Shown here: positions 14,145 through 19,058 of the stretch, in pieces
Layout: every line of letters begins with the position of its first letter
How positions within the stretch are numbered: the first letter of the stretch is position 1
NCBI GenBank assembly: GCA_002722695.1
Contig: PBMS01000014.1
Location: forward strand, 5,486-57,582
DNA length: 52,097 nt
From: Methanobacteriota archaeon
GTDB lineage: Archaea; Thermoplasmatota; Poseidoniia; Poseidoniales; Poseidoniaceae
Direction of reading: 5' to 3'
The notes under the pieces: generated by a model
Told to the model about the DNA's origin: nothing
Seen by the model: the letters and a program-made list of their open reading frames with translations, nothing else
Databases searched by the model: none
Made by a program: the position numbers and the translations under genes

Positions 14145-15890
14145 TCAGTAATCCGAATACGCCAAGAACCGCATGTAGGTGCCGTAGATCGTGACCGAAA
14201 CATCGAGCGATTCTTCGTTAAAGCGATCCATGGTGTCGGCGTAGGTGTGGTACTCCCAACTGCCGCTGCCGTAGCACACCACCGCGCGACCTCGCTCTCC
14301 ACCGCCCAAATCGTAGACGAAGGGTGCGTGGTCGGAGTTGTAGGGCATGCCGTCGGGTTCGCCTCGGTCCCCGGGGAGAGTCCGAACCTGGATGTCGTAC
14401 TGGTTGGCGACCTCCGAGCGTTCGTTCCTGTAGAGCTCTGTGATGCGCTCGATGTGGTCCATGTCGTCCTGTTCGTTGCCAAACAGGGTCACTGTGTTGC
14501 CACGGTTGGACATGTCGGCATCGACGTGATTCATGTCGAGGTTGAGATAGAGACGTAGATTGTCCTGCAGGCTGTTTTGGAAGGCTTGGACGTACGCACG
14601 ACTTCCGTAGAGCCCTTCTTCTTCGCCGCCCCACGTGCAGAACCGAAGCGTGCGCTCGGGCTGACCCGTCTCGTTGACAATGGCGCTGAGTTGTCGACCG
14701 ATTTCCATCACGCTGGCGGTGCCCGACGTGTCGTCAACGGCGCCTTGTCCGTTGTAGACGGTGTCGTGGTGGCCGCCGACGATCACGACCTCCGAGGACT
14801 TACCGCGTATCTCTCCGCACGGGACATAGATCGTGCGTTCTTCGTCGTTGGTGACGTCGATGATCATCTCCAACACGCCCGGTGGTCCGGTGGCGTTGAA
14901 GATCGCCTGCTCGAGAATTTCGCCGGCGTCTTTCGACATGGCGATGAAAGGAAGCTCGCTTGGAACGCTGCCTCCGTTGGCTTCGCTCACCTCGTCGATT
15001 CGACTTCCTTTGAAGATGGGAACGCAGTCGTTGGCTTCGATTTGACCGCAGTTCGCGTCTTTGTTCACGAATATGAGGCCTGCAAGGTTGTTTTCGGCGG
15101 CCAGGGAGAACATGCCCGTGTTGCCGCCCACGTCCGCTCCGCTACGAACGTAGCCGATGCTTCCACCGGCTGAAGCCCACAGGGCGTCGTCGGTTCCGTT
15201 GCCCAAGTCTGTCAGCTGCACGTCTTCTTGGAAGGTGTATGCGGATTGCCCGGAAAAGCCCTGAATGACGTAGTCGATTCGATGCTGGAACTGAACAACC
15301 TGCGAGCCGATGGCCAGCGGACCTTCGCAGGGGCTGTTGCCGCCGAACCCTTGCGTGCAGATTCTCAAACTCGGTTCGCTGTTGACGTGATGCATCGGCA
15401 CCTGATAGGTGTGCTCAGTGACCGACATGCCCATGGCCTCAAACTGCGAAGCGATGTAAGCCGAGGTGTTGGCCTCTTCGACGGTACCGCTCATCCTTCC
15501 CTCCCATTCCGGGTGGCCCAGAGCCACCAAATCCTCGGCGAAGGCGCGTGTTTGGGCCGCATCGTAATCGATGAGGTCGTACTCGTAGTTGGGTGAGAAC
15601 CCAAGCCACGTCGGGCGGAACACAAACACGGCGGTGACCATCAACACCACAACACCGATGGCCATCAGGGCCTGAGGGGTGAGCACGTCGGTGCTGCGCC
15701 ACCAAGGCGTGTCTTCTGTGAGGGGGTCGGCGTCCTGTGCCTCGGGTTCGTCCTCCAGACTCAGCACGGCATCCTGCGCGCTGTTTTTGTCCAACCGTTC
15801 GATGAGTTGGGCCTTTGACCCGCTGACAGGAAGATTCAGTTCTCGAAGCATGCCCTTGAGTTCGGCGACGGTTTTGTCATCCAGCTTCAT
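14145..15890 (-). CDS. Membrane-anchored M28 metallopeptidase with N-terminal SAP domain
   Basis: The 581-residue product has three parts. Residues 1-38 (MKLDDKTVAELKGMLRELNL, then GSKAQLIERLD) form a SAP helix-extension-helix motif, normally a nucleic-acid-binding module. A single transmembrane helix covers about 72-92. The rest is an extracytoplasmic M28 aminopeptidase with a PA-like insert. Zinc ligands are visible: His-Asp in GGHHDTVY (about 373), bridging Asp in AVDDTSG, Glu pair in WGGEEEGLYG (about 423), Asp in LNLDMNH, and His in YHTYADT (about 550). It is predicted to release N-terminal amino acids from peptides outside the cell. The parvulin and folB follow downstream. Confidence 0.88.
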   Translation of the reverse strand: MKLDDKTVAELKGMLRELNLPVSGSKAQLIERLDKNSAQDAVLSLEDEPEAQDADPLTEDTPWWRSTDVLTPQALMAIGVVVLMVTAVFVFRPTWLGFSPNYEYDLIDYDAAQTRAFAEDLVALGHPEWEGRMSGTVEEANTSAYIASQFEAMGMSVTEHTYQVPMHHVNSEPSLRICTQGFGGNSPCEGPLAIGSQVVQFQHRIDYVIQGFSGQSAYTFQEDVQLTDLGNGTDDALWASAGGSIGYVRSGADVGGNTGMFSLAAENNLAGLIFVNKDANCGQIEANDCVPIFKGSRIDEVSEANGGSVPSELPFIAMSKDAGEILEQAIFNATGPPGVLEMIIDVTNDEERTIYVPCGEIRGKSSEVVIVGGHHDTVYNGQGAVDDTSGTASVMEIGRQLSAIVNETGQPERTLRFCTWGGEEEGLYGSRAYVQAFQNSLQDNLRLYLNLDMNHVDADMSNRGNTVTLFGNEQDDMDHIERITELYRNERSEVANQYDIQVRTLPGDRGEPDGMPYNSDHAPFVYDLGGGERGRAVVCYGSGSWEYHTYADTMDRFNEESLDVSVTIYGTYMRFLAYSDY

Positions 15891-16735: not shown

Positions 16736-19012
16736 TCAACTAAGAAGAAGAAGGCTAAGTTGCATCACAGCGGCTCCAAAGACCGCACCAACGAGCAGAT
16801 GTTTAGGGCGATTTTGTTCTCTCGCTTGTGGAATCAGTTCATTGTATGCAACTACTGTCATGATCCCTCCGACAAATGCCAGCGAGCACCCTACCATGAA
16901 CGGGGTCAAAATCGGACCGAGAATCAACAAAGCGAACAAAGCCCCGAGCGGTTCGGTAAAACCGGTCGCCATTGCGATAAGCGTCGCCTTCATTCGACCG
17001 CCACCGCCTGCTTGTATTGGTGCGGCCACAGCAATGCCTTCGGGGATGTTGTGAAGAGCGATTGCGGCCATGAGCACGACACCGTACTGAGCTGATTCAA
17101 GAACGGCCACGCCCATGGCCAAACCTTCCGGGAAATTGTGAATGGCGAGGGCGATGGCTGTGAGGATGCCAGATTTGTACAATTTTCGTTCCTTTGACAT
17201 CGAGGAGAGATCTTCGTCCTTGTTCGCGTACATGCTCACGGCATAAACGATACCTACTCCCACACCAAACGAGAGCGTGATAGGAAGGAAGCCATTTTCC
17301 ATGGCTTGACCGAACCACAAATCGAGAACGGAAACCAAAAGCATCACGCCAGCGGCCATGGCGAGCAAAAAGGCCATCATTCCCTGACTGATTTCTTTTA
17401 GAACAAACACGATGAGGCCACCAATCCCAGTGGCGAGGCCTGCGAGCAATGCGAGAACAAACGGAAAGACCCAAGATTCAGACTCGCCCTCCAAGCCTGA
17501 AATTTGGATGAGTGGTTCCTCAATGCTCTCATGACCTCCTTGAGCAAGAAGGATTTGGAGGACGATTTCCACTGTCAACGCTAATCCGTCTTGGTGAACA
17601 ACATCTGGAACGTCGGTTGGACGGTGGTATTGTTCGTATTCCCACCCGTAAAACCCGACGGTTGTGGTCCCGTGTTGGTTAAACGAACGATGGTCGCTGT
17701 TTCCACCAAATTCGTTCAGTATGACGTTCGCCTCGTAATCCGCCCATACTTCATGCCCCAACACCGAACGTTGAATCTTGGAAATTGACTCGACAAGGCT
17801 CTGATCTGAGGTTTCAATACCGAGCGTTCCGAGTCCTATCGAGGGATTCAAGTTCGTTGAATCGAGGTTGATGTACAGATCAAGGTTTTCGACTTCTTCG
17901 GTGTAGGATTGTATGTAGGATTGACTCCCCAACAACCCCAGCTCTTCACCGCCCCATGTGGCAAAGGTGACGGTCGATTCAAGATTGAGTTCACTCAATT
18001 GAGTGGCAACCTCGAAAAGTTGGGCCACACCGACGGCGTTGTCTACGGCGCCAGGACTGATGTATACTGAATCATGATGGGCGCCAACCAATATCTCTCC
18101 ATTCCCGTGGCCAGGGAGTTCCCCCGTCACCACTTTCACGCTTCTCATACCAACGTTATTTCCTTCCCAGAATCCGTCCAGAGAAGCATACAAGGTGGGG
18201 TCGCTTGCAGCTTGTTCGATGTAATCATGGAACTTCACTGCAACACTTTCAGCGATGTAGATGTAAGGAATCAATGCATCAGCGTATTGACCGCCATAGG
18301 CATCAGGGAACGGAACGGTTGCACCGTCTTCTTGCACGGTAACGGAGCGAAAGGGAGGTGTCTCGACGCCCTCTGTGTAGATCATGACAACGCCTGCATT
18401 TCGATCAATGGCATCTTTGTAGATTTCAGCGAGACTACGGGTGTTGTCATGGTTAATCATCACGGCGAGGTCCGTCATATCACCAATATTTTCAAAATTC
18501 TCAGCTGACCCGTTGCCGATGAAGGTGAGCATGTTGTCGTGCTTGTGAATTGAACCCGAGTATCCCATGAACGTGAAACTCTCAACGTGATTCAAATCCC
18601 CCGTTTCGTCAATTGCAACCCGACCCGTGCCCGCCGAACCATCCGGCAAGCCTGGGGCATTTTGCACACCCTGCTCCAACTGTGCATGCATCAAAATTTG
18701 GTGGTCTTCTGGCTCCGCGTCAACAAACCATGCTCCAGTCACTTGAAATTCCTCTACTCTGACGTTCTCCAAGCCGATTTCCGTGAAACGCTTACTGATA
18801 TAATCTGAAGCAAGTGTTTCTTCCACTGAACCTGCAACCCTCGGTCCAAGCGAGGCGATGTTCGATACATCTTCCATCATTTTTGAATCATCGATTGCAA
18901 AGGCCACCTCTTCCTCTTCATGGAGGAGAAACTCATACGTAAAACTCGATAACAAAACAATGGTGGAAACAACACCAACCACAGTAAGCATTCGGTCTGA
19001 CGACAGGCCCAT
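16736..19012 (-). CDS. Fusion of an extracytoplasmic M28 peptidase with a ZIP-family metal transporter
   Basis: One uninterrupted 758-residue frame. Residues 8-28 form a signal-anchor helix and about 40-480 an M28 zinc peptidase: GAHHDSVY (about 313), GAVDNAVG (bridging Asp), WGGEELGLLG (about 355), NLDSTN (about 382) and YHRPTD (about 462). From about 510 to the end are eight hydrophobic segments of a ZIP (GufA-like) transporter with both metal-site motifs, AIHNFPEGLAMG (about 626) and ALHNIPEGIAVA (about 656). ZIP proteins have an outside N-terminus, so the peptidase would face outside, as its anchor also predicts. Metal import coupled to a metalloenzyme is an inference. The gene is more AT-rich than its neighbours, and its promoter contains a DtxR-like palindrome. 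Confidence 0.9.
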   Translation of the reverse strand: MGLSSDRMLTVVGVVSTIVLLSSFTYEFLLHEEEEVAFAIDDSKMMEDVSNIASLGPRVAGSVEETLASDYISKRFTEIGLENVRVEEFQVTGAWFVDAEPEDHQILMHAQLEQGVQNAPGLPDGSAGTGRVAIDETGDLNHVESFTFMGYSGSIHKHDNMLTFIGNGSAENFENIGDMTDLAVMINHDNTRSLAEIYKDAIDRNAGVVMIYTEGVETPPFRSVTVQEDGATVPFPDAYGGQYADALIPYIYIAESVAVKFHDYIEQAASDPTLYASLDGFWEGNNVGMRSVKVVTGELPGHGNGEILVGAHHDSVYISPGAVDNAVGVAQLFEVATQLSELNLESTVTFATWGGEELGLLGSQSYIQSYTEEVENLDLYINLDSTNLNPSIGLGTLGIETSDQSLVESISKIQRSVLGHEVWADYEANVILNEFGGNSDHRSFNQHGTTTVGFYGWEYEQYHRPTDVPDVVHQDGLALTVEIVLQILLAQGGHESIEEPLIQISGLEGESESWVFPFVLALLAGLATGIGGLIVFVLKEISQGMMAFLLAMAAGVMLLVSVLDLWFGQAMENGFLPITLSFGVGVGIVYAVSMYANKDEDLSSMSKERKLYKSGILTAIALAIHNFPEGLAMGVAVLESAQYGVVLMAAIALHNIPEGIAVAAPIQAGGGGRMKATLIAMATGFTEPLGALFALLILGPILTPFMVGCSLAFVGGIMTVVAYNELIPQAREQNRPKHLLVGAVFGAAVMQLSLLLLS

Positions 19013-19035: not shown

Positions 19036-19058
19036 TGATAAATTTAGGGCGGCCTAAA
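19036..19058 (-). promoter_or_regulatory. TATA box overlapped by a DtxR-like palindromic operator, promoter of the peptidase-ZIP fusion
   Basis: TTTAGG (19043-19048), GCGG, CCTAAA (19053-19058) form a perfect inverted repeat. Its core TTAGG-N4-CCTAA has the arrangement of the DtxR/IdeR operator core (TTAGG TTAG CCTAA). On the minus strand TAAATTTATCA (19036-19046) lies about 29 bases before the ATG at 19012, the spacing of a TATA box on a leaderless mRNA. A bound repressor would cover the TATA/BRE region. The regulator is not encoded in the window; the assignment rests on the motif only. Confidence 0.5.

Follow-up and report, generated by a model that had tools for sequence, protein, structure and literature searches.

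The gene at positions 16736-19012 on the reverse strand of the window (the whole stretch of DNA analysed, 52,097 nucleotides) encodes an M28 peptidase-fold ectodomain and a ZIP metal transporter in one chain. The best explanation, for which a probability of about 0.55 is given, is that the protein is a divalent-metal importer, probably for Fe(II), which is induced by iron starvation and in which the M28-fold ectodomain serves as a receptor or ligand-handling domain.

The gene is a single open frame from ATG to TGA (758 aa), as the sequence-only reading had stated, and it is defined by Pfam matches that passed the curated cut-offs for both halves, by an NCBIfam match and by an AlphaFold2 model. 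The M28 catalytic domain covers residues 295-486 (17555-18130, reverse strand; Peptidase_M28, PF04389, E 2.2e-33, 116.1 against a cut-off of 21.3 bits). In the HMMER alignment to the aminopeptidase 2ek8, the window copy keeps H312, D314, D324, E356/E357, D384 and H463, and the five metal ligands (H312, D324, E357, D384 and H463) and the catalytic Glu (E356) are all present, confirming the complete ligand set claimed earlier. The ZupT-type ZIP importer covers residues 512-757 (16742-17479, reverse strand) and has eight transmembrane helices together with HNFPEG (625-630), HNIPEG (654-659) and TEPLG, so the description of a complete ZIP with both HNxPEG motifs also held. Pfam Zip (PF02535) matched residues 607-752 (E 6e-22, 78.7 against 35.1 bits), and the NCBIfam ZupT model (NF003243) spans 512-757 (E 2.4e-58); since the score of 197.5 bits missed the equivalog cut-off of 252 bits, the fusion ZIP is described as ZupT-like and is not filed as ZupT. 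This half also aligns with the solved BbZIP, and the binuclear-site motifs of TM4 and TM5 (HNFPEG and HNIPEG) occur in all complete copies, with HTIPEG in one genome (G102) as the sole exception. Judged from its sequence, the fusion ZIP would carry divalent metal into the cytoplasm.

The AlphaFold2 model of the full chain, built on 116 aligned sequences (pLDDT 84.6), starts with an N-terminal membrane anchor helix (residues 2-30; 18923-19009, reverse strand), followed by an ectodomain of mixed alpha/beta structure, and ends in eight helices at 515-757. The anchor is also apparent from the residues around it, with a short positive N-terminus inside and an acidic EEEE following the helix. The positively charged ZIP loops (539, 598-613, 673-675 and 731-737) lie where the cytoplasmic loops of a ZIP with an extracytoplasmic N-terminus are placed, and by the positive-inside rule the M28 ectodomain and the ZIP entry are on the same outer side, in agreement with the outward-facing peptidase proposed earlier. 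Like ZupT and other ZIPs (PF02535, NF003243, BbZIP 5tsa), the fusion has eight helices and HNxPEG twice, with 33-40% identity to the listed bacterial ZupTs, but it adds an anchored N-terminal M28 ectodomain of about 500 residues. ZIPs of the LIV-1 subfamily likewise combine a ZIP with an N-terminal extracellular domain, which is not M28-fold; of the two, only that of the fusion is. Among the papers searched, none described a protein that joins M28 and ZIP in this way, as the sequence-only reading had expected. The ZIP and M28 parts are assigned on sequence grounds to already known families. A second M28 protein is encoded at 14145-15890 of the window (reverse strand), with an N-terminal SAP domain, a transmembrane helix and then M28, and many standalone Poseidoniales M28 proteins have a similar SAP-like start.

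The fusion is kept in related marine archaea: of the 294 Poseidoniales genomes examined, which belong to two families, 38 carry it. In the family of the window genome (f1), the M28 half occurs in 20 of 146 genomes at 67-94% identity, and all copies not cut by a contig end are single frames of 757-803 aa. The sister family (f2) has the fusion in 18 of 148 genomes, two copies being present in G448, and here too the copies uncut by contig ends are single frames, of 758-882 aa. Overall, the copies are 47-95% identical, including those of the single-cell genomes AG-461-G23 and AG-404-K16, and dN/dS values of 0.02-0.2 over all parts of the fusion indicate purifying selection on both halves. Split homologues, with M28 and ZIP as separate genes, were looked for in the 294 genomes of the two families and none was found. 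When 84,980 species genomes were scanned, full-length copies among the best 80 came only from Candidatus Poseidoniales and related "euryarchaeote" records, the other matches listed among these 80 being standalone ZupTs at 33-40% identity. A search of 293 genomes of the phylum, evaluated for all frames except one of 589 aa in G178 and one of 598 aa in G154, recognised the fusion in Poseidoniales alone. Two f2 copies (G408 and G411; L301 and L302) branch among the f1 copies in the tree and are 92-94% identical to the window copy, reflecting either transfer between families or binning. No conserved gene neighbourhood was found around the copies, where similarity was patchy, with an acyl-CoA dehydrogenase near a few of them, and gave no functional clue; by eye, there was no clear pattern of mutual exclusion with standalone ZIPs.

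The regulation of the gene is suggested by the palindrome TTTAGGnnnnCCTAAA at 19043-19058, which ends 30 bp before the ATG and merges into the TATA-like AAATTTAT. The published IdeR/DtxR half-site consists of two CCTAA repeats with a 4-bp spacer (PMC10317159), and the TTAGG-N4-CCTAA half-site read upstream of the fusion agrees with it, placing the palindrome in the DtxR/IdeR type. The box stands 3-38 bp ahead of the start in 42 of 43 aligned copies (38 perfect, 4 with one mismatch), the UBA8725 copy being the single exception; because a few genomes are listed under two names, the 43 rows represent about 39 distinct copies. The 1.63 Mb genome of the window holds three perfect sites, including that of the fusion. 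Across 30 genomes, per-genome counts of the forward box total about 120, compared with about 13 for the reversed control, and in random 250-nt stretches of the window the best match had 3-6 mismatches, save in those containing the site itself. The box was not found before 21 standalone Poseidoniales ZIPs or 22 standalone ZupT relatives elsewhere, and in carrying an iron-type promoter box the fusion differs from these relatives. DtxR-family proteins (PF02742) are present in 57 of 59 relatives and in the window genome (G000, contig C11, about 34641), and a repressor of this family is predicted to bind the box. As in IdeR/DtxR iron regulons, iron genes follow the half-site, but the Poseidoniales case is archaeal and its regulator-box pairing is putative. 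In one genome (G060, contig C97, 47660-47866), the fusion is followed at a distance of about 2.5 kb by a second DtxR-family gene. The third perfect box of the window genome (L109, 4424-4439; G000, contig C23) adjoins an ORF that is without a Pfam match and may be spurious.

The genes sharing the box belong largely to iron metabolism. In the window genome, a pair of boxes (one perfect, one with a mismatch) leads a run of genes (L108, 4817-13614; G000, contig C15) encoding a Fea1 lipoprotein, CarboxypepD_reg, a Peripla_BP_2/FecCD/ABC ATPase importer, flavodoxin and CREG/DUF2470. In other genomes, the largest box-led groups were Fea1-type lipoproteins (15) and lipoproteins matching both Phosphonate-bd and Transferrin (8); flavodoxin and an acidic exported protein followed with 7 each, and glutamyl-tRNA reductase (GlutR, hemA) with 6. 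The box was also found ahead of NuoA, the small chain of ribonucleotide reductase and an ABC ATPase that looks like SufC. The gene set behind the TTTAGGnnnnCCTAAA box is an iron regulon, and the presence of the ribonucleotide reductase small chain and flavodoxin points to a metal-sparing part of the response. Among these genes, L181 (3078-5189, G011) follows a double iron box and encodes a lipoprotein of 704 aa that matches Phosphonate-bd and Transferrin (PF00405, E 2.3e-42), while the acidic exported protein (L192, 3073-4872, and six relatives) has only a weak TSP_3 match.

The fusion also co-occurs with Fea1, which was detected in 32 of 38 fusion genomes compared with 21 of 104 others (odds ratio 21, Fisher p 4e-12). 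When fusion status was shuffled within genera, the observed Fea1 count was reached in 0 of 20,000 permutations. The first set of fusion-free genomes was chosen for completeness before Fea1 was looked up, and the fusion-free genomes generally surpass the fusion-bearing ones in completeness, a bias that works against the association. The exceptions are six fusion genomes without detected Fea1 and 21 Fea1 genomes without the fusion, all read from incomplete genomes. As for other iron transporters, FeoB was found in 0 of 65 genomes and FTR1 in 5 of 65, none of them fusion-bearing. In the diatom phytotransferrin system a Fea1 protein goes with a CREG-domain protein (PMC7972479, PMC7883536), and in the window genome both occur in the run behind one box pair; the archaeal system differs in that Fea1 is a lipoprotein, the proposed partner is the ZIP fusion, with no endocytosis involved. 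No paper on phytotransferrin in Marine Group II was found. The pairing of Fea1 with the fusion could also be explained by a common low-iron habitat without direct contact between the two.

The role of the ectodomain is the point at which the main competing explanation enters, in which M28 is an essential peptidase that strips peptide or protein ligands of their metal, iron or another, for immediate import by the fused ZIP. This explanation is possible but judged rather improbable. It draws on the iron-type box and on the M28 ligands, complete in the window copy and in most others, and the ectodomain fold fits active aminopeptidases, since a Foldseek search (with an earlier model from 21 sequences, weak in the ZIP part) placed it nearest the M28 aminopeptidases 2ek8, PaAP (8acr) and BSAP (6hc6), followed by the transferrin receptor and GCPII. 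Compared with these aminopeptidases, the fusion has a transporter attached and an extra invariant His/Glu motif, and its active site is lost in some copies. In the 43-row alignment most copies retain an intact M28 site, but retention is not family-wide: D324 is replaced by K, T or S and H463 by L or Q in G280, G399, G402, G338, G504 and one copy of G448 (G448a), H312 and H463 are lost in G472, and D324, E356, H441 and H463 are lost in the other copy of G448 (G448b). The tree of fusion copies requires at least two losses (with G280/G399/G402, G338/G504/G448a, G472 and G448b as the eroded groups), and the copies concerned keep the fusion, the promoter box, the ZIP motifs and the ectodomain His/Glu motif, with dN/dS mostly at 0.04-0.2. 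Each of the seven genomes concerned (G280, G399, G402, G338, G504, G448 and G472) has Fea1.

Because at least two lineages lost metal ligands or the catalytic Glu and kept the fusion, the box and the ZIP, catalysis is not indispensable, and peptidase activity is likely not what holds the fusion together. For the same reason, the suggestion in the sequence-only reading that the breakdown of peptides is coupled to metal supply is not supported as a general rule. The prevalence of the intact site suggests that catalysis is useful in those copies, and the ectodomain is probably also an active aminopeptidase in most lineages.

A role of the ectodomain beyond peptidolysis is argued for by the His/Glu motif, which is invariant while the M28 site is lost. 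The motif (18536-18691, reverse strand) comprises M108, H109, Q111 and E113, then H142, and GYSGxxHKHD with H156, H158 and D159. In the copy alignment, all 43 rows share H109, E113, H142, H158 and D159, and 42 of them H156. None of 17 standalone Poseidoniales M28 proteins showed HxHD. The fusion-specific His/Glu motif is a candidate second metal or ligand site.

In the favoured explanation, that of an iron-starvation-induced importer, a DtxR-family repressor would, as long as the cell has enough iron, occupy the TTTAGGnnnnCCTAAA box at the promoter, and the fusion gene would be expressed when iron drops. The protein would be held in the membrane by its first helix, with the M28-fold ectodomain outside at the ZIP entry. 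There the ectodomain may dock or strip an iron carrier, most plausibly the co-regulated surface lipoproteins of the Fea1 (phytotransferrin) family or the transferrin-like ones, and hand the metal to the ZIP, perhaps through the conserved His/Glu motif. The C-terminal ZupT-type ZIP would then import a divalent metal, of which Fe(II) is the likeliest. The steps that we infer are the binding of DtxR, the transport of iron in particular, the docking to Fea1 and the transfer of metal through the His/Glu motif.

A more specific and doubtful version would liken the archaeal system to the transferrin cycle, minus endocytosis: Fea1 or transferrin-like lipoproteins would capture ferric iron at the surface and dock on the M28-fold ectodomain, a receptor that shares its fold superfamily with the animal transferrin receptor, and the released iron would enter through the ZIP fused to it. 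The transferrin receptor and GCPII (M28B) resemble the fusion in having an M28-fold ectodomain linked to iron uptake with a dispensable active site. The likeness lies in a fold common to all M28 proteins, with the Foldseek hits 1de4 and 1cx8 ranking behind the bacterial aminopeptidases, and the transferrin receptor is without a transporter domain; the fusion is not called a transferrin receptor.

The identity of the ion leaves two further alternatives. ZupT-type ZIPs are broad and accept Zn, Fe, Mn and Co, and therefore the iron regulon does not fix the transported ion. That the protein takes in manganese (or some other divalent ion) as a replacement during iron starvation is unlikely: ZIPs carry Mn in other organisms, and the box stands in relatives ahead of the metal-sparing ribonucleotide reductase small chain and flavodoxin, but the specific co-occurrence with Fea1-family proteins speaks against it. 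Still less probable is a zinc importer feeding the M28 site or the cell, with peptide breakdown linked to zinc supply. The ZIP/ZupT family includes zinc importers and M28 enzymes use zinc, but the promoter box is common to iron genes, the standalone Poseidoniales ZIPs are without it, and the fusion survives in copies whose M28 zinc site is destroyed. Zinc as the likely metal is unsupported, because the box, the regulon and the co-occurrence with Fea1 all indicate iron. A frameshift or a chimeric assembly or binning artefact, for which the draft state of the window genome might speak (70.7% complete, 50 contigs), was rejected as hardly credible, given the conservation of the fusion across 38 genomes, single-cell genomes included, at 47-95% identity and with both halves under selection.

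Poseidoniales (Marine Group II) are abundant, uncultured archaea of the surface ocean, and no paper settling their iron acquisition was found. The fusion is probably an unrecognised iron uptake route of ocean archaea, and it offers a concrete candidate for a Poseidoniales iron importer where FeoB was found in none of the 65 genomes. The promoter motif marks the regulon of this candidate importer, and the proposed Fea1 lipoprotein partner may be traced in ocean transcriptomes from iron-poor waters. The retention of a peptidase fold on a transporter after decay of its active site would also present a case of an enzyme turned into a receptor or carrier domain.
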